Origin: Planctomycetia bacterium
GTDB lineage: Bacteria > Planctomycetota > Phycisphaerae > Phycisphaerales > SM1A02
Direction of reading: 5' to 3'
Length of the DNA: 64,000 bases
NCBI GenBank assembly: GCA_005787685.1
Contig: SYAC01000014.1
Span: 62,001 to 126,000 of the forward strand
Positions 49,480 to 57,622 of this stretch are shown in pieces. A program made the position numbers and the translations under genes. The notes beneath the pieces were generated by a model that worked only from the letters and a program-made list of their open reading frames with translations, did no database searches and was not told the origin of the DNA. The first letter of the stretch is position 1. Every line of letters starts with the position of its first letter.

Positions 49480-50520
49480 TTATTGATTTGAAAGCCGAAT
49501 CACGGTTTCAAGAAGCGAATTGACCCGACCAGACTCAATCGCTTCAGAAGCCAGGGCGGCTGCCGATTTAGGATCACTTGCTTTGTCGGCAACCATTAAA
49601 CCAAGGGCCGCGTTTATTAAAACCAAATCCAACGACGATCCGCGATCAATACCGCAAACCAATCGTTTGAATTGGGTTGTGGCATCAATTAAATTTTCAG
49701 AAGCGCGCGGGACAGAACGACTGCGAGAAATACCAAACTGCTCCGGTTCAAACACAATGTCACCCATAATTCGACCACGAACAATTTCAACGGCGTATGT
49801 TTTATCACAGACACTAACCTCATCAAATCCGTCAGCACTGTGAACCACAAACGCTTTTATGGCGCCGCGGCGGGCAAGCACTTGAGCAACGGGCTCCAAC
49901 AAATCACGACTCCAAACACCCACAACTTGTCGCAATGCACCGGCGGGATTTGCCAGTGGACCAATCGCGTTGAACAGGGTTGGAGTTCCAATCGCCTTGC
50001 GCGCATCGGTCGCAAACCGCGCCGCCGGATAGTGTTTGGGCGCAAGACAAAAGCAAAATCCACACTCCGAAAGCATTTTTACCTGTTTGGCTGGCTCCGT
50101 CGCAATATTCACGCCCAATGCGGCCAGCGTTTCCGAAGAGCCAAATCCAGTGCGCGAGCGATTTCCACTTTTAGCCACAACTCCGCGGCAGGCCGCAATA
50201 ACAAGCGCGGAAAGCGTGCTGACATTCAGCATTTTAGGGGCGCCACCCGTACCCGCAGTGTCAATAATTTTTTCACAGGCAATTTCCGTTGGAATTCGTG
50301 TTGATGAATTCATCAATGCTTGAACACCACCGAAGATTTCAACCGCCGTTGGAGTTCTCTGTGATATCAGGCGTAGCCATCGCTCAATCAGTGGCGTTTC
50401 AACCTTACCGCTAAAAATAGCGCCCATTGCCAGGCCGACTTGCTCGGATGTAAGAGGTTTTCCATTCTGGGCAACCAACAACATTTCTTGCATGATCTGA
50501 ATTGGATCATCATTCTTCAT
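49480..50520 (-). CDS. trpD: Anthranilate phosphoribosyltransferase
   Basis: Tryptophan biosynthesis enzyme joining anthranilate and PRPP. 346 aa with DTAGTGGAPKMLNVST near residue 87, KSGNRSRTGFGSSETLAALG (family usually KHGNRS), and a conserved FNAIGPLANPA. The start lies 2 nt after the stop of the upstream fusion gene. No other trp genes are in the window, so tryptophan genes are scattered in this genome. Confidence 0.93.
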   Translation of the reverse strand: MKNDDPIQIMQEMLLVAQNGKPLTSEQVGLAMGAIFSGKVETPLIERWLRLISQRTPTAVEIFGGVQALMNSSTRIPTEIACEKIIDTAGTGGAPKMLNVSTLSALVIAACRGVVAKSGNRSRTGFGSSETLAALGVNIATEPAKQVKMLSECGFCFCLAPKHYPAARFATDARKAIGTPTLFNAIGPLANPAGALRQVVGVWSRDLLEPVAQVLARRGAIKAFVVHSADGFDEVSVCDKTYAVEIVRGRIMGDIVFEPEQFGISRSRSVPRASENLIDATTQFKRLVCGIDRGSSLDLVLINAALGLMVADKASDPKSAAALASEAIESGRVNSLLETVIRLSNQ

Positions 50521-50522
50521 GG

Positions 50523-52508
50523 CTATAGCTTGTAGGACTTCATTAATTTTGAAAGCTTTGATTGCTGTGGATTTTGCAAAAGTGATCGCTCAAACGCAGC
50601 CTTGGCCGATGAGCGAATGTCCGCATCTTTCTTTCCACCCACCAACCAGGTGTTGAGTAAATTAATGCCAATCCCATTCCATGCGGGCCAATGCCTTGTA
50701 TCTATACGGACAGCATCGCGGTAGCTTGCCAAACTTTTTTCGTAATCACCAACACGAAAATATGCCCAACCAAGCCGCTCGTAACTGTTTGGATTCGGAG
50801 CAAGTTTGACCAACAACAATGCCGCGTTCACCGCCTCGCGGTAGCGTTTACTTTGCGCATACGCGTTTAGTAAATTGGTCAAAAGTTGAGGGGTTGGCTC
50901 CATTAATTCAGCAGCAAGCTCATATTGAGCGATCGCCAAATCTGGTTTTCCAGATAATTCATATGAAACGCCAAGATTGATGCGCGCGATTCCAGAATCC
51001 GGCTTCAGCTTGACAGACTTTTCCGCATAGACAATCGCGCTTCGCCCCTCATCAAGTTGCAAATAGGCTGTCGCCATATTGAGATTGGCGTCAAAATCAT
51101 CCGGACGTATGAGTAACGCGCGGTGATAGGCGCGAATGCAATCCACCAATTGATTGAGAACCTGCAACGCCTTTCCACGACCAAATTGTGCGTCAAAGTT
51201 TCCCGAATCAAGTTCCGCCGCGCTTGCATAGGCTGATTCGGATTGTGTCCAATCTTTTTTAAGCGCCTGCGCCTGTCCCACACCAATCCATGCATCAGGT
51301 AGCTTGGGATTTTCTTGAAGGATTTCCTGAAATGTGGCGAGAGCATTATCGTAATCACCCGAATCAATTTGTTGTTTGCCGCGAGAGAGCAAAGCCGACT
51401 CGTCAACCGTAGGAGCAACAGGACCATTCCATAACGAGGGCGAATTTGTTGGTGTATTCCCGCGAATTTCATCCAGTGTTTTGGTCTTACACGCCACATT
51501 CAACACCAATAGTGTTGAAACGAATAGTCCAAGCAGGGCAGAAGCCTTTGACTTTGGAGTAAGAGATTTTTTTGAACTTTTCAAATCAAACTTTAATTTA
51601 CCACCCCGCAATCGCCGAGCGTTTTCCAAATCCCAACTTTGTCCCTGAAATAAGCTCTCTTTTGGAGTTTCAAGAATCATGGGAACATTTTTCCAAGCGC
51701 CTACCGCGGTGACTGCCTTAAAACAGGCTTGTCCACACGCGCCATCAAGAATGTGCGCATGGCGATCCTTGCGGCTTCCACAAGGAAATTTCGAATCGTT
51801 CGCGTGGATTACCCTCACATTTTTGAACCCTAAATGACGATTTATTTCAGCCAGCGTTTTATTTGCATTGGTTGATGTGTCCATGTTGTAACCTGCCGCC
51901 AGGGCGTGGCAGGTATCAATGCAAAAGGCGATTCGCCCCGAATCACCAACAAGCTCACGAGTGACTGCGAGTTGATTGAAGTTGTAACCAAGAGTTGTTC
52001 CGGCGCCAACCGTATTTTCAAGACATGTGAAAACTCGGTATCCAGGAAGATCCTTGTGAAGTTGATCCAGGCTGGAAGCCAAACGCTTCAGACCCTGCAA
52101 CTCATGTGGGTTGGGTTGGGCCAACAAATCATTTTTTTCCTGCGGGGAGCGCTTGCCAATTAAATGTGCGCCAGGATGCATGACACACAATTCAATACCG
52201 AGCATTTCACAGCGCTCCAACTCGCTTCGCTGCAGCGCAATCGATTTTTTTCTAGAAGCAGTGTCTGGACTGGCAAGATTTACCAAATAACTATTGTGGC
52301 TTACCACCCGGTGATCTTTGGGGTTGCTCCAACCGGCCTTCTTCAATGCCTCAAACCAATCCGCGCATTCTTGTTGAGATGGTTGTCGCGGCTTCCACTG
52401 GCGTTGGTTCGCCGTGAACAACTGCACACAATCAAGACCAAGCGCAACAGCTTCGTGTACGGCGTTTGCAACACCACCCGCAGCGCTTCGATGTGAACCA
52501 ATACGCAT
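50523..52508 (-). CDS. Endonuclease IV fused to a TPR lipoprotein-like domain
   Basis: 661 aa in one frame. Residues 1 to about 305 are a complete endonuclease IV: SHRSAAGG at the start and all metal ligands of E. coli Nfo are identifiable (VVSHNS, VMHPGAH, CLENT, FCIDTCHA, VIHAND, DRHAH, ILETPKE). Without a stop, the frame continues into SSKKSLTPKSK, a hydrophobic stretch ending in the lipobox NVAC (Cys340), and then at least six TPR repeats (DAWIGVGQAQALKKDW, LGWAYFRVGDYEKSL). The second half looks like a separate lipoprotein with its own signal, possibly started internally at the TTG at 51584. AAGGATG precedes the ATG. Confidence 0.85.
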   Translation of the reverse strand: MRIGSHRSAAGGVANAVHEAVALGLDCVQLFTANQRQWKPRQPSQQECADWFEALKKAGWSNPKDHRVVSHNSYLVNLASPDTASRKKSIALQRSELERCEMLGIELCVMHPGAHLIGKRSPQEKNDLLAQPNPHELQGLKRLASSLDQLHKDLPGYRVFTCLENTVGAGTTLGYNFNQLAVTRELVGDSGRIAFCIDTCHALAAGYNMDTSTNANKTLAEINRHLGFKNVRVIHANDSKFPCGSRKDRHAHILDGACGQACFKAVTAVGAWKNVPMILETPKESLFQGQSWDLENARRLRGGKLKFDLKSSKKSLTPKSKASALLGLFVSTLLVLNVACKTKTLDEIRGNTPTNSPSLWNGPVAPTVDESALLSRGKQQIDSGDYDNALATFQEILQENPKLPDAWIGVGQAQALKKDWTQSESAYASAAELDSGNFDAQFGRGKALQVLNQLVDCIRAYHRALLIRPDDFDANLNMATAYLQLDEGRSAIVYAEKSVKLKPDSGIARINLGVSYELSGKPDLAIAQYELAAELMEPTPQLLTNLLNAYAQSKRYREAVNAALLLVKLAPNPNSYERLGWAYFRVGDYEKSLASYRDAVRIDTRHWPAWNGIGINLLNTWLVGGKKDADIRSSAKAAFERSLLQNPQQSKLSKLMKSYKL

Positions 52509-52511
52509 GCG

Positions 52512-53552
52512 TTACATCCTTGCGCCATCCAGGGCCTTTGCCGCAGCAACAATTCGCTCCGCGGTGCGTACGGCTGCAAATCCAGCCTCGGCATCAGCGA
52601 AGGGTTTTCGACCGGTGTGAATAGCGTCAACAAAATCTTCAAGCTGTAATTTCAACGGCTCCCCCGCCTTCACATCAAGCGGCTCAACCGAGACAAGATC
52701 AAGCCAGTTCACGCTGCTTAAATCTTCGCCCTCTTTCAGGCTTTTCTTTACCGAAGTCAATTTTTCTTGATTGGCGGTTTTGCGAATAACCGTCCCCTTG
52801 CGCTCCACAAAATCCGCGCTCATGTACGCGTCCGACCCAATCAAGCGAATTTTGCGTTCGGTCTTTAGGGCCAATCGACTTGCGGTGATGTTGGCAACAC
52901 AACAGTGACCATCTGGTCCAGGCGCAAAAGTTAACCGTGCGTTGCACACGTCTTCACTATCGCCCAACACGCTCACCGCGCTGGCGTGCACCTCGGATGG
53001 CTCTCGTTCTAGCAGCATTAACAATAAATCAAGATCGTGAATCATCATGTCAAGCACAACGCCAACATCAACACTGCGAAATGTCATTGGACTAATTCGG
53101 TCGATTTCTATAAAGCGCGGCATTCCCAACGCGAGCTGGCGAATAGCCACCATGACGGGGTCGTATCGCACAACATGGCCAACCTGAAGAATGGCGCCAG
53201 ATTTGGCAGCGGCATTGGCAATGGCGCGCGCTTCAACAACACTGGGCGCCAATGGTTTTTCAATCAGGCAATGAACGCCCCTGGCAAGCAGCGCCTCGGC
53301 GGCGGCGCGGTGGTGAATTGTTGGAGTTGCAATCACCACGCAATCCACACCATGTGTGATTAATTCATCAACACTTGCGAAGCCCTTACCACCATATGTT
53401 TGGGTCATTTCATTACGGCGCGACTCCTCACGGTCAACAACACCGACAAGGTCAACGCCTTCAAGTTGCGTGCCCAAACGAACGTGGTGGCGACCCATGC
53501 GGCCCGTGCCAACAACACCATAACGGAGTTTTTTCTTGCTCATTGTTGCCAT
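52512..53552 (-). CDS. Gfo/Idh/MocA family oxidoreductase
   Basis: NAD(P)-dependent oxidoreductase, 346 aa from the ATG at 53552 (ATG 53543 also possible). GVVGTGRMGRHH is the N-terminal dinucleotide motif; VVIATPTIHH and LIEKPLAP follow; MIHDLDLLLML is the metal/substrate-proximal motif. Substrate unknown: the family handles sugars and inositols. It heads the minus-strand operon with the nfo fusion and trpD, with 3-nt spacing. Confidence 0.9.
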   Translation of the reverse strand: MATMSKKKLRYGVVGTGRMGRHHVRLGTQLEGVDLVGVVDREESRRNEMTQTYGGKGFASVDELITHGVDCVVIATPTIHHRAAAEALLARGVHCLIEKPLAPSVVEARAIANAAAKSGAILQVGHVVRYDPVMVAIRQLALGMPRFIEIDRISPMTFRSVDVGVVLDMMIHDLDLLLMLLEREPSEVHASAVSVLGDSEDVCNARLTFAPGPDGHCCVANITASRLALKTERKIRLIGSDAYMSADFVERKGTVIRKTANQEKLTSVKKSLKEGEDLSSVNWLDLVSVEPLDVKAGEPLKLQLEDFVDAIHTGRKPFADAEAGFAAVRTAERIVAAAKALDGARM

Positions 53553-53621
53553 TAAGGATAGTCGTTTTGGAGTGAAATATATAATCACGCTGACCGTAAA
53601 TGGGCATTGATGGCAAGTGAT

Positions 53622-54488
53622 TCATGGGCCAACAACAGACTCAACGGCGCGCTTGAACATGGAAAGCCCAAGTGTGTCACCGGCGCGTTGTGTGGTTGAC
53701 ATGCGGGTCCACCACGGGTGTTGTGTCCAGCGTGTGAATCGCTCGGGGTGAGGCATGAGCCCAAATACCAAACCGCTTGCGTCACATATTCCCGCGACGG
53801 CGTTCATGCTGCCATTAAAATTGTCATGGGCTGCATAGCGCAAGGCTATTTGACCATTTTTTTCAAGCGTTTCCAGCGTGTTCGAGTCCGTCATAAATCG
53901 ACCCTCACCGTGGGCACAAGGAAGCATGGCGCAATCTTGATCGAATGAAAGTCCGTGTGTCCACACACACCTTGTATTGGCGGGAATTTCCACTCCCGTC
54001 CATGCATCATGAAATCGCTCGCCAATATTTGTGGCAAGTGCAACCATTGGCGCGGCGGCAATGCGTGGCCACTCTTCAAGTTGTTGGTTGCAAGACATGC
54101 GCGTATTTATCGACATGGATTCATTCATTGACGAGCTTGCGGCAGAACACGCCGCGGGACCAGGCAGCAAGCCAGCCTGCACCGCAATTTGAAATCCATT
54201 GCATGGACAAATTATTGGGGTGCCCCGCTCAATTGCCGCGGCGAGTGCTGGGTATATTTCTTTGCGCATCAATGCCGCCATAATTCGTCCGGCCGCAATA
54301 TCGTCGCCATAACTAAATCCACCAGGCAAACCAATCAGCGTAAATTTATCCACAAGGGTTGGCTGGCGTATAAGCCGCGAAAGCAAAACGCTTTCAGGAT
54401 GCGCGCCCGCGGCGGCAAAAGCTTGCGACAACTCCAGGTCGCAATTAATTCCCGGCGCAGTAATAACAAGGGCTTTGGGAGATTTCAT
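53622..54488 (-). CDS. purQ: Phosphoribosylformylglycinamidine synthase subunit PurQ
   Basis: Glutaminase subunit supplying ammonia to PurL in purine synthesis. 288 aa. Nucleophile Cys in CPCNGFQIAVQAGLLP, LPGGFSYGDDI before it, and the His/Glu pair in LMPHPERF. The start lies 3 nt after the purL stop, so the two are coupled. Confidence 0.95.
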   Translation of the reverse strand: MKSPKALVITAPGINCDLELSQAFAAAGAHPESVLLSRLIRQPTLVDKFTLIGLPGGFSYGDDIAAGRIMAALMRKEIYPALAAAIERGTPIICPCNGFQIAVQAGLLPGPAACSAASSSMNESMSINTRMSCNQQLEEWPRIAAAPMVALATNIGERFHDAWTGVEIPANTRCVWTHGLSFDQDCAMLPCAHGEGRFMTDSNTLETLEKNGQIALRYAAHDNFNGSMNAVAGICDASGLVFGLMPHPERFTRWTQHPWWTRMSTTQRAGDTLGLSMFKRAVESVVGP

Positions 54489-54491
54489 GGG

Positions 54492-57491
54492 CTACCAATT
54501 CTCTCCAGCGCTTTGCCAAGCGGCCCGCAGTGCGCCCACAGCAATCTGTTCTTGACCCACCACAAACAAGCCGCTGTTGTTGAATGTTCCAATTACGCCG
54601 TGCGCAATATCAGCCAGCATGACTGTAATTTTAGAAATATTTTCTGGAGCAACTTCAAGTAAATAGCGGCTAGGTGTTTCGCTAAAAGCGCACGCCGCAA
54701 TCGGGATATTTTTTTCACAGGCCATTGCGTGCAAATTTATTTCAACGCCTAAATCGCCACCAAACGCCATTTCGGCGGCTGCCAGTAAAGCGCCACCCTC
54801 GCTTGCGTCATGCGCGCTTGCAACAAGACCAGAGGCAATACACGCCGCAACGGCACGCGCGGTCTTTGGACCAACTTGCAAATCAACCATTGGCAATCGC
54901 ATATCCATGCCAGCACAATCTCCAAGCATTGATCGGTGCGAGCCACCCATGCGCGCATCGGTAAGACCCACTAAAACCAGCATATTTCCTGCTTTTTTTG
55001 CGTCCATGGTTACGGCGCGTTCCACATTCTCAACAATGGCTAGCCCCGAAATAAGCAGGGTTGGCGGAATGTGAATGGTCTCGCCACTCTCGGTGGTGAA
55101 CTGATTGTTAAGAGAATCTTTTCCACTAATAAATGGAGTGCGATACGCCAACGCGCCATCTAAACACGCCTCCGACGCACGCACCAAACTACCCATATGG
55201 CGCGGGTCCTTACATGATGGCCAACAAAAATTATCCAGAATGGCGATCTTGGTTGGATCGCTCCCCACACACACCAAGTTGCGTACACATTCATCAATTG
55301 CGGCCAGCGTCATGATGTATGGATCAGCGGCAAGACCGGTTGCTAAACCATTGGCTATGGAAACCCCACGCGTTGAATGCGTCAATGGTTGCAATACCGC
55401 GGCGTCGCCTGGGGCGCCAAACTTTCCTACAAGTGGCTTGATCACGCTTGTCCCTTGAACCTCGTGGTCGTATTGGTGAATAATCCACGCCTTACTGCCA
55501 ATGTTGGCGTGCGCAAGAAGCGAACAAAGCGTGTCCAGCAAACCCGCGCCGTCCTTCCGTGCCGACGCATGAAGCGTGGGCGTGTAGCGCGTGTGCCATT
55601 CACCATCCCACACCGCTTCGCGTACGGGATTGGGTAGACCTGTATCAAGAAAGGACATGGACAAGCGGCCCATTTCTGTTCCGTTCCACAACAAAATCAA
55701 CTCCTGGTTGGGTGTTGCAAACTCCCCCAGATCACACATGGTTACGCCGTGGTCATTGCATAGTGTTTGCAGTTGTGCAACATTCGCAACTGGTACCGAT
55801 AGCACCATGCGCTCTTGAGCCTCGCTAATCCAAACTTCAGTCGGAGTAAGCCCCTCGTACTTCAGTGGGGCACGATCAAGGTTGACCAACGCTCCAATAT
55901 CTTTACCCATTTCACCAATAGCGCTTGAAAAACCACCCGCACCGCAATCCGTAATGGCATGAAAGAGCGGTTTGTTATTGGTGTCACGCGCAGCAAGAAT
56001 GGCGTCTAGGGTTTTCTTTTGTGTGACGGGGTTTCCAATTTGCACCGCATGACCAAACTCATCGGCGTGTGAATCCGTCAATTCGGCGCTAGAAAATGTC
56101 GCGCCATGAATTCCATCGCGGCCAGTTTTTCCGCCAAGCACAATAATTCGGTCGCCCGCGCGCACCCTTCCGCGAACAAGTTCGCGTGGCAACACGCCAA
56201 CAACCCCGCAATACACAAGCGGATTTCCCACATAGCGTGGGTCAAACCACACTCCACCGTTCACGGTTGGAATACCCATGCGATTGCCGTAATCACGCAC
56301 TCCCGCGACAACCTGGCGCAATACCCGCGCCGGCGGAAGGCAGCCTTTGGGAACAATCGCATCTGGTGGTGCGACACAAAATACATCTGTGCAGGCGATT
56401 GGCTTGGCGGCAAGACCAGTTCCCATGACATCGCGAATACAACCACCAATACCCGTGGCTGCCCCGCCGTAGGGTTCGATTGCGCTTGGATGATTGTGGG
56501 TTTCAACTTTCATACACAGCGCGTGTGTGTCGTCAAAGGCAATCACGCCGGCGTTGTCAACAAACACGCTTAGGCACCAGTCAATCGAGCCCGGCTTTGT
56601 TGTATCCATAAGTGAATGCGTGGCCGCGGCCACCGTGTGCTTCAGCAAATTATCGATTACTAATTCGCCCGATTTTCCAAGCGTGTGTCCCGAAATTTTT
56701 TCCGCCCGCGCCAATAAACTTGGCGAATTAGACGCCAAAGATTTTTCCGTGTAGCTCACTCGGCTCTTCAATGTTTTGTGTACGCAATGCTCGCTCCAGG
56801 TTTGCGCCAGCGTTTCAAGTTCAATCTCGCGTGGCTCGCGCGCCAACGCGCGGTAGTGCGCCTGAATAGCAAGCATTTCAGGCAGGTCCAAAAATAAATG
56901 AGCCTGTCGACTTAGTTTCTCAAGTTCGTCATGTGCCAAATTCAGCAGTGGAATTTCTTTCACCTGAACGGCGCGCGCTCCGCCAAGGGGAAACTGAGTT
57001 GGCATGTATGGCGCCACATGAATCGCCTGTACAACAGTGTTGGCTAAATATTTTATGGCAAGACTTTCGCCTTGGGCAACACTGGTGCCATGAAAATCCC
57101 AGCGCTCACCAGTTCGAACCCGCACCGCTTTGCCCACAAGTTTTTCCACCGCAAGCTCCACGCTTTCGGCTGCGGGATCCGTCACGCCAGCAAGTGGATG
57201 TACTTCTATTGTGCAGCCCAGCTTTGGAACAACAGACGCACAGGTAAACGCAACCTGAGTCACCGGGTCCGCCAACAATTGTTGGCTGATAAATTGCAGG
57301 TCGGTTTCATTCAGATCACCATCAAAAAAATAAACTTGTGCGTGTTGAATAAGTTCTGGGGCAACACCGCTATCGGCAACCACGCGCCTGAGCAACGAAG
57401 AGCCACGCACATCTACACACCCAGATTTTGGGCGCACCTCTACGCGGTGAATTATTTGGATTTGGCTGGCGCAAAGGTGGCTGGCAGACAT
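54492..57491 (-). CDS. purL: Phosphoribosylformylglycinamidine synthase PurL with N-terminal PurS-like region
   Basis: Converts FGAR to FGAM with PurQ-derived ammonia. 999 aa. The N-terminal ~190 residues contain two tandem PurS-like segments (EVRPKSGCVDVRG and EVHPLAGVTDPAAESV), then the catalytic blocks SEHCVHKTLK, VETHNHPSAIEPYGGAATG and GGKTGRDGIHGAT. It thus combines PurS and PurL while PurQ is separate, as in the mid-size bacterial form. The frame is open to 57536, but TACACT lies 6 nt before the ATG at 57491, which I take as the start. Confidence 0.95.
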   Translation of the reverse strand: MSASHLCASQIQIIHRVEVRPKSGCVDVRGSSLLRRVVADSGVAPELIQHAQVYFFDGDLNETDLQFISQQLLADPVTQVAFTCASVVPKLGCTIEVHPLAGVTDPAAESVELAVEKLVGKAVRVRTGERWDFHGTSVAQGESLAIKYLANTVVQAIHVAPYMPTQFPLGGARAVQVKEIPLLNLAHDELEKLSRQAHLFLDLPEMLAIQAHYRALAREPREIELETLAQTWSEHCVHKTLKSRVSYTEKSLASNSPSLLARAEKISGHTLGKSGELVIDNLLKHTVAAATHSLMDTTKPGSIDWCLSVFVDNAGVIAFDDTHALCMKVETHNHPSAIEPYGGAATGIGGCIRDVMGTGLAAKPIACTDVFCVAPPDAIVPKGCLPPARVLRQVVAGVRDYGNRMGIPTVNGGVWFDPRYVGNPLVYCGVVGVLPRELVRGRVRAGDRIIVLGGKTGRDGIHGATFSSAELTDSHADEFGHAVQIGNPVTQKKTLDAILAARDTNNKPLFHAITDCGAGGFSSAIGEMGKDIGALVNLDRAPLKYEGLTPTEVWISEAQERMVLSVPVANVAQLQTLCNDHGVTMCDLGEFATPNQELILLWNGTEMGRLSMSFLDTGLPNPVREAVWDGEWHTRYTPTLHASARKDGAGLLDTLCSLLAHANIGSKAWIIHQYDHEVQGTSVIKPLVGKFGAPGDAAVLQPLTHSTRGVSIANGLATGLAADPYIMTLAAIDECVRNLVCVGSDPTKIAILDNFCWPSCKDPRHMGSLVRASEACLDGALAYRTPFISGKDSLNNQFTTESGETIHIPPTLLISGLAIVENVERAVTMDAKKAGNMLVLVGLTDARMGGSHRSMLGDCAGMDMRLPMVDLQVGPKTARAVAACIASGLVASAHDASEGGALLAAAEMAFGGDLGVEINLHAMACEKNIPIAACAFSETPSRYLLEVAPENISKITVMLADIAHGVIGTFNNSGLFVVGQEQIAVGALRAAWQSAGENW

Positions 57492-57497
57492 GAAACG

Positions 57498-57503
57498 AGT
57501 GTA
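57498..57503 (-). promoter_or_regulatory. -10 element of purL, leaderless type
   Basis: TACACT (57503-57498) ends exactly 6 nt before the ATG at 57491. No ribosome-binding site precedes that ATG and no clear -35 is visible. Confidence 0.45.
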
Positions 57504-57622
57504 ACGCTGAGTGGTCACATACTCGAGCCAAAGCATAATTCAGGGCAATTTTGATTCGTTTTTTTGCGACCATACAATTTCAGCCGCGCCATTTATGTCT
57601 TATTAACCAACGCAGTTGCGAT

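Follow-up and report, generated by a model that had tools for sequence, protein, structure and literature searches.

How can a single reading frame encode both a cytoplasmic DNA repair enzyme and a lipoprotein destined for export, and what becomes of the resulting chain? This question is posed by an open reading frame in the window (the whole 64,000-nucleotide stretch of planctomycete DNA analyzed here), which a preliminary description had read as endonuclease IV (Nfo) running stop-free into a TPR lipoprotein. The frame spans 50523..52508 on the minus strand, begins with ATG and encodes 661 amino acids followed by a stop. Inspection of the frame confirms that its 661 codons are uninterrupted, with no stop codon at the junction of the two halves, and relatives of full length lack one as well. 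Judged from sequence, the protein unites an ordinary Nfo with a TPR lipoprotein in a fusion that is conserved and, in crossing compartments, unusual.

The reading frame encodes two confidently predicted domains

The Nfo domain occupies 51606..52508 on the minus strand (residues 1-301), as delimited by family model, reference structure, metal ligands and structure prediction. Residues 3-284 match the TIGR00587 nfo model with an E-value of 5e-71 and 239.2 bits, which passes the cut-off of 129.65; the narrower PRK01060 equivalog models also match, with scores under their cut-offs. Comparison with Escherichia coli Nfo (1QTW) yields a sequence match at E 1.5e-49, and Foldseek aligns the Nfo half of the AlphaFold model to 1qtw with a TM-score of 0.90. 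When ligand positions are mapped on 1QTW, 9/9 are found in the window (H71, H111, E164, D198, H201, H235, D248, H250 and E280), and all nine trinuclear-site ligands are kept throughout, in the fused copies (42/42) as in the separate ones (25/25). The family match and the ligands together bear out the claim of a complete Nfo. The two proteins share the fold, the nine ligands and a full-length domain; AP endonuclease activity of the window protein is a prediction. E. coli Nfo, at 285 amino acids, is soluble and free, whereas the window protein adds ~360 residues, including a membrane segment. A search of the window's genome for a second, free nfo found none, leaving the fused copy as the sole Nfo.

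The C-terminal half (residues ~368-661; 50526..51407, minus strand) is a TPR superhelix recognized by Pfam TPR families and modeled with a pLDDT of ~90 or more. Repeats begin at about residue 372, and Foldseek matches this half of the model to the consensus TPR superhelix 8chy. Weak matches were also obtained to the TPR lipoproteins PilW/PilF, Tgl and PrsT (NCBIfam names), which share with the window protein a lipobox-type cysteine followed by a TPR superhelix; the signal is N-terminal in those lipoproteins, whereas it is internal here. These names were rejected for the TPR half, as every score lies far under its curated cut-off (PrsT, 65.6 versus 312.2; PilW, 41.8 versus 154).

Four elements, all on the minus strand, connect the domains. 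A Lys/Ser-rich flexible linker (51546..51605, residues 302-321; pLDDT <50 for 304-321) leads into a hydrophobic segment of the signal-anchor or signal-peptide kind (51492..51545, residues ~322-339; mean hydropathy 2.1; model helix 321-338). The lipobox-type Cys340 (51489..51491), which is invariant and set in the motif N-V-A-C, is followed by a post-cysteine linker (51408..51488, residues 341-367), with low model confidence over 337-361. This succession agrees with the preliminary description in its Lys/Ser-rich n-region, hydrophobic segment, Cys340 and TPR repeats; the lipobox itself is not canonical. For the whole chain, AlphaFold returns two confident domains (mean pLDDT 86.4) and, between them, a disordered linker that contains a single helix, and the mutual placement of the domains is not fixed (pTM 0.49). 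Pooled pN/pS values of 0.16 for Nfo and 0.10 for TPR, against 0.63 for the linker, strongly indicate that both halves are under strong purifying selection.

The open junction is conserved across six genera

A search of 60 relatives was followed by one of 181 genomes of the family, and each junction was read individually. Six genera contribute to the 42 distinct fused junctions obtained in this way, namely g1 (the window's genus), g41, g17, g6, g60 and g62, such that the open junction is kept across dozens of species of small-genome planctomycetes. Within the window's genus, the junction is open in 12/12 genomes that carry it on a single contig, the window included, and independent assemblies agree. 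All 42 distinct sequences are free of in-frame stops at the junction (0 in 1833 codons). The +1 frame of the same DNA contains stops in 32/42 and the +2 frame in 15/42, so the stop-free junction exceeds chance expectation. The distance from a WDxxN motif to the cysteine ranges from 27 to 74 codons across the 42 fused sequences and is in frame every time.

Other genera of this family, and members of two further families of the order, carry nfo and the TPR gene as adjacent, separate genes on the same strand, with a stop between them or with different frames. Relatives therefore do not always carry two genes with a stop between them, an outcome that the preliminary description had named as counting against its reading: congeners are all open, and it is other genera that have two genes. 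Outside the order, the sampled genomes have Nfo without the TPR gene. Viral contigs held no relative of the fusion and plasmids held plain nfo only. A literature search on this fusion or on lipobox polyproteins returned nothing useful.

Several apparent exceptions were read closely. One genome (G001) looked split, and its junction falls across two contig ends. No Nfo was detected in congeners G005, G009 and G011, two of which are ~91% complete; this would fit either loss of the gene or missing contigs in an incomplete assembly. Long open frames in genus g54 and in genomes G058 and G124 were considered as further fusions and rejected, since on reading they are separate genes. A near-identical copy of the planctomycete fusion occurs in a genome titled Betaproteobacteria bacterium (L040, RFYV01000065.1), which is probably a mislabeled or mis-binned metagenome assembly.

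Every genome concerned is a metagenome assembly, which gives some footing to the view that the fusion is an assembly or sequencing artifact, or else a recent stop-loss pseudogene. The same open junction nonetheless recurs in many independent assemblies from six genera, linkers of 27-74 codons are all in frame, and both halves are strongly constrained. An assembly error is ruled out by the many relatives with the same junction, and artifact or recent decay as a whole is exceedingly improbable.

One chain is probably translated in most genera

The preliminary description offered as its first explanation that the stop had been lost and that the lipoprotein is started internally, at a TTG at 51584. 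The loss of the stop stands. The TTG is indeed in frame, as codon L309 (51582..51584, minus strand), but it is not conserved in relatives, no Shine-Dalgarno-like motif was found upstream of it and 10/42 fused sequences have no start in reach. We judge that it is not a start, and reject it as a general mechanism.

The same loss of starts is visible across the sample. Among separate sequences, 41/42 have an ATG that the signal segment could use within reach, against 18/42 of the fused ones (kinship ignored); for any of ATG, GTG or TTG the counts are 42/42 and 32/42. Of the ten fused sequences with none, several are devoid of start codons over a long interval: L052, L054, L055, L068 and L097 lack any between the WDxxN motif and the midpoint of the hydrophobic segment. 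The pooled linker data show no suppression of synonymous changes and hence give no hint of a concealed start or regulatory element.

Internal initiation of the TPR lipoprotein, whether or not a read-through fusion is also made, could still draw on the in-frame starts of those 32 fused sequences, on MR-L starts in some g41 species, and on the in-frame ATG (AMAK or LMAR) conserved just before the signal segment in g17 (loci L048-L051). Set against these are the startless frames, the scarcity of ATG in fused relative to separate sequences, candidate positions that are not conserved across genera and Shine-Dalgarno motifs upstream of candidates that are not convincing. Taken over all genera, such a start is improbable; in g17, and that genus alone, it is plausible. 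Outside g17, translation of a single chain is very likely. As far as sequence can tell, then, one chain carries an internal signal, with no stop before it and with starts lost in many relatives.

Origin and genomic setting of the fusion

In a tree of both halves (67 rows), parsimony assigns four changes to the fused state, at least two of which are forced by well-supported branches, and a single group of all fused copies is rejected (AU p 3.6e-5). The tree would fit either one old fusion that was re-split in some lineages or repeated fusions.

The window gene belongs to an operon-like run on the minus strand (49480-57536) of purL-like, purQ-like, Gfo/Idh, nfo-TPR and trpD genes with gaps of a few bases. 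Its upstream neighbor is the Gfo/Idh oxidoreductase; downstream lies trpD in the window's genus and queF in several genera (L083, L078, L094, L092, L091), and all are unrelated housekeeping genes. According to a published study (PMC6461901), planctomycetes of fresh water have smaller genomes and shorter spacers than their relatives from soil and sediment; that study also treats the MAG from which fused locus L049 comes, ZH-13MAY13-plancto70. Genome compaction is for this reason a plausible origin of the fusion. General stop loss in the genus was rejected: a blind scan of one congener (G014; 795 kb, 590 ORFs) recovered this fusion as the only internal lipobox in an otherwise soluble ORF, and a scan of the window gave no other convincing case.

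An internal lipoprotein signal may resolve the chain

We next consider the fate of the chain, for which the segment between the domains provides the evidence. Linker sequence and length vary among relatives, and the rest of the segment is variable as well; between A297 and P366 in alignment A1, no column but the cysteine is invariant, and the cysteine is present in 42/42 fused copies and 25/25 separate ones. The stretch before the hydrophobic segment has a net positive charge in 42/42 fused sequences. The residue at -1 is G, A or S in 42/42, a count that is partly by construction because the cysteine was sought beside these residues, whereas the invariance of the cysteine is unforced. In the window, Cys340 follows the hydrophobic segment with the small residue A339 at -1, as in a lipoprotein; the signal, at residues 322-339 of the ORF, is not N-terminal. 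The genome encodes Lgt (PF01790, E 1.7e-52) and LspA (PF01252, E 1.7e-26), with one copy found of each. Together, the invariant cysteine, the small residue at -1, the positive charge and the two enzymes are the marks of an internal lipoprotein signal. As a separate observation, Lys or Arg directly follows the cysteine in 30/42 fused versus 4/25 separate copies (kinship ignored).

The best reading of these features is a polyprotein that would resolve itself through the lipoprotein pathway, to which we assign a probability of roughly 55%. In this proposal, nfo and the downstream TPR lipoprotein gene were originally separate neighbors, and in several genera the stop of the former and the start of the latter were lost such that one chain is translated, a step that the sequences support well. 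The N-terminal Nfo would fold and work in the cytoplasm. By topology rules, what was once the signal peptide would adopt an N-in/C-out orientation within the chain and direct export of the TPR half by the Sec translocon. Since signal peptides keep their N-terminal side in the cytoplasm, as type II signal anchors do, a folded Nfo ahead of the signal would be topologically acceptable. Lgt would then lipidate the invariant cysteine, and we infer that LspA cuts before it. Nfo would be left with a hydrophobic C-terminal tail embedded in the inner membrane, and the TPR half would become a normal lipoprotein. With the halves parted by the internal signal, loss of the stop would be tolerated.

The residue at -3 tempers this proposal. 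The published lipobox consensus, from which the LspA cut site is also taken, has L, V or I at this position (PMC6952399). The window motif, N(-3) V(-2) A(-1) C, fails the consensus [LVI][ASTVI][GAS]C, and Asn or His stands at -3 in nine sequences of the window's subclade; other species of its genus carry LTGC, LSAC and LPAC. Strict consensus separates poorly in this family, where 9/42 fused and 8/25 separate copies satisfy it. Leu at -3 is found in 10/42 fused versus 13/25 separate copies (raw counts, kinship ignored), and Asn at -3 in 0/11 N-terminal lipoprotein-like ORFs of one congener. The Asn or His of the window's subclade speaks against full confidence in cleavage, and an uncut tether would fit it too.

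Such a tether would be a single-span protein of ToxR or CadC type, with Nfo held inside, TPR outside and a cysteine that is perhaps lipidated and left uncut. Beyond the non-consensus -3 in the subclade and the relaxed -3 of fused copies generally, it would accommodate the flexible linkers that AlphaFold places on both sides of the hydrophobic segment, and the greater hydrophobicity of that segment in fused than in separate copies (kinship ignored), which would fit the needs of an internal signal and those of a permanent anchor. A cysteine in 42/42 with G, A or S at -1 would, however, have no easy explanation if lipoprotein processing were absent. The genome also encodes LspA, no functional link is known to join Nfo to a TPR protein of the periplasm, and the adjacent genes are of unrelated housekeeping kinds. 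We regard a lasting tether as unlikely, though as the main rival. The second explanation of the preliminary description, a membrane-tethered repair enzyme, thus holds for one product with a membrane segment; the permanence of the tether is doubtful, as the cysteine, its -1 residue, Lgt and LspA point to separation. It is similarly doubtful that the chain stays whole, joining Nfo at the inner membrane to an outside, possibly lipidated TPR domain such that base-excision repair is localized to or coupled with the envelope.

Implications and comparison with known systems

Gene fusions usually unite proteins of the same compartment, whereas nfo-TPR, found in six genera or more, joins a cytoplasmic repair enzyme to an exported lipoprotein and has retained the signal with its cysteine throughout. 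If LspA resolves the chain, lipoprotein signals would serve as built-in cleavage sites that make the stops between some neighboring genes dispensable, and polyproteins could arise by this route where bacterial genomes are compact. If the chain is uncut, an AP endonuclease would be anchored in the membrane. In both cases, an automated annotation taken from just one half of the ORF is misleading.

Two kinds of known system invite comparison. Single-span regulators of the ToxR, CadC and RodZ type have a cytoplasmic DNA-acting domain, one membrane span and a periplasmic domain, an order predicted for the window protein as well. To our knowledge these regulators have no lipobox cysteine; in nfo-TPR the cysteine never varies, and a repair nuclease takes the place of the DNA-acting domain. 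FbcH of Bradyrhizobium (cytochrome b/c1) is a polyprotein cut at an internal signal sequence by the type I enzyme. It shares with nfo-TPR one ORF, an internal signal peptide and separation by a signal peptidase, the last of these predicted for nfo-TPR. The halves of FbcH are subunits of one complex, whereas those of nfo-TPR are unrelated and the putative cleavage site between them is of the lipoprotein (LspA) type.
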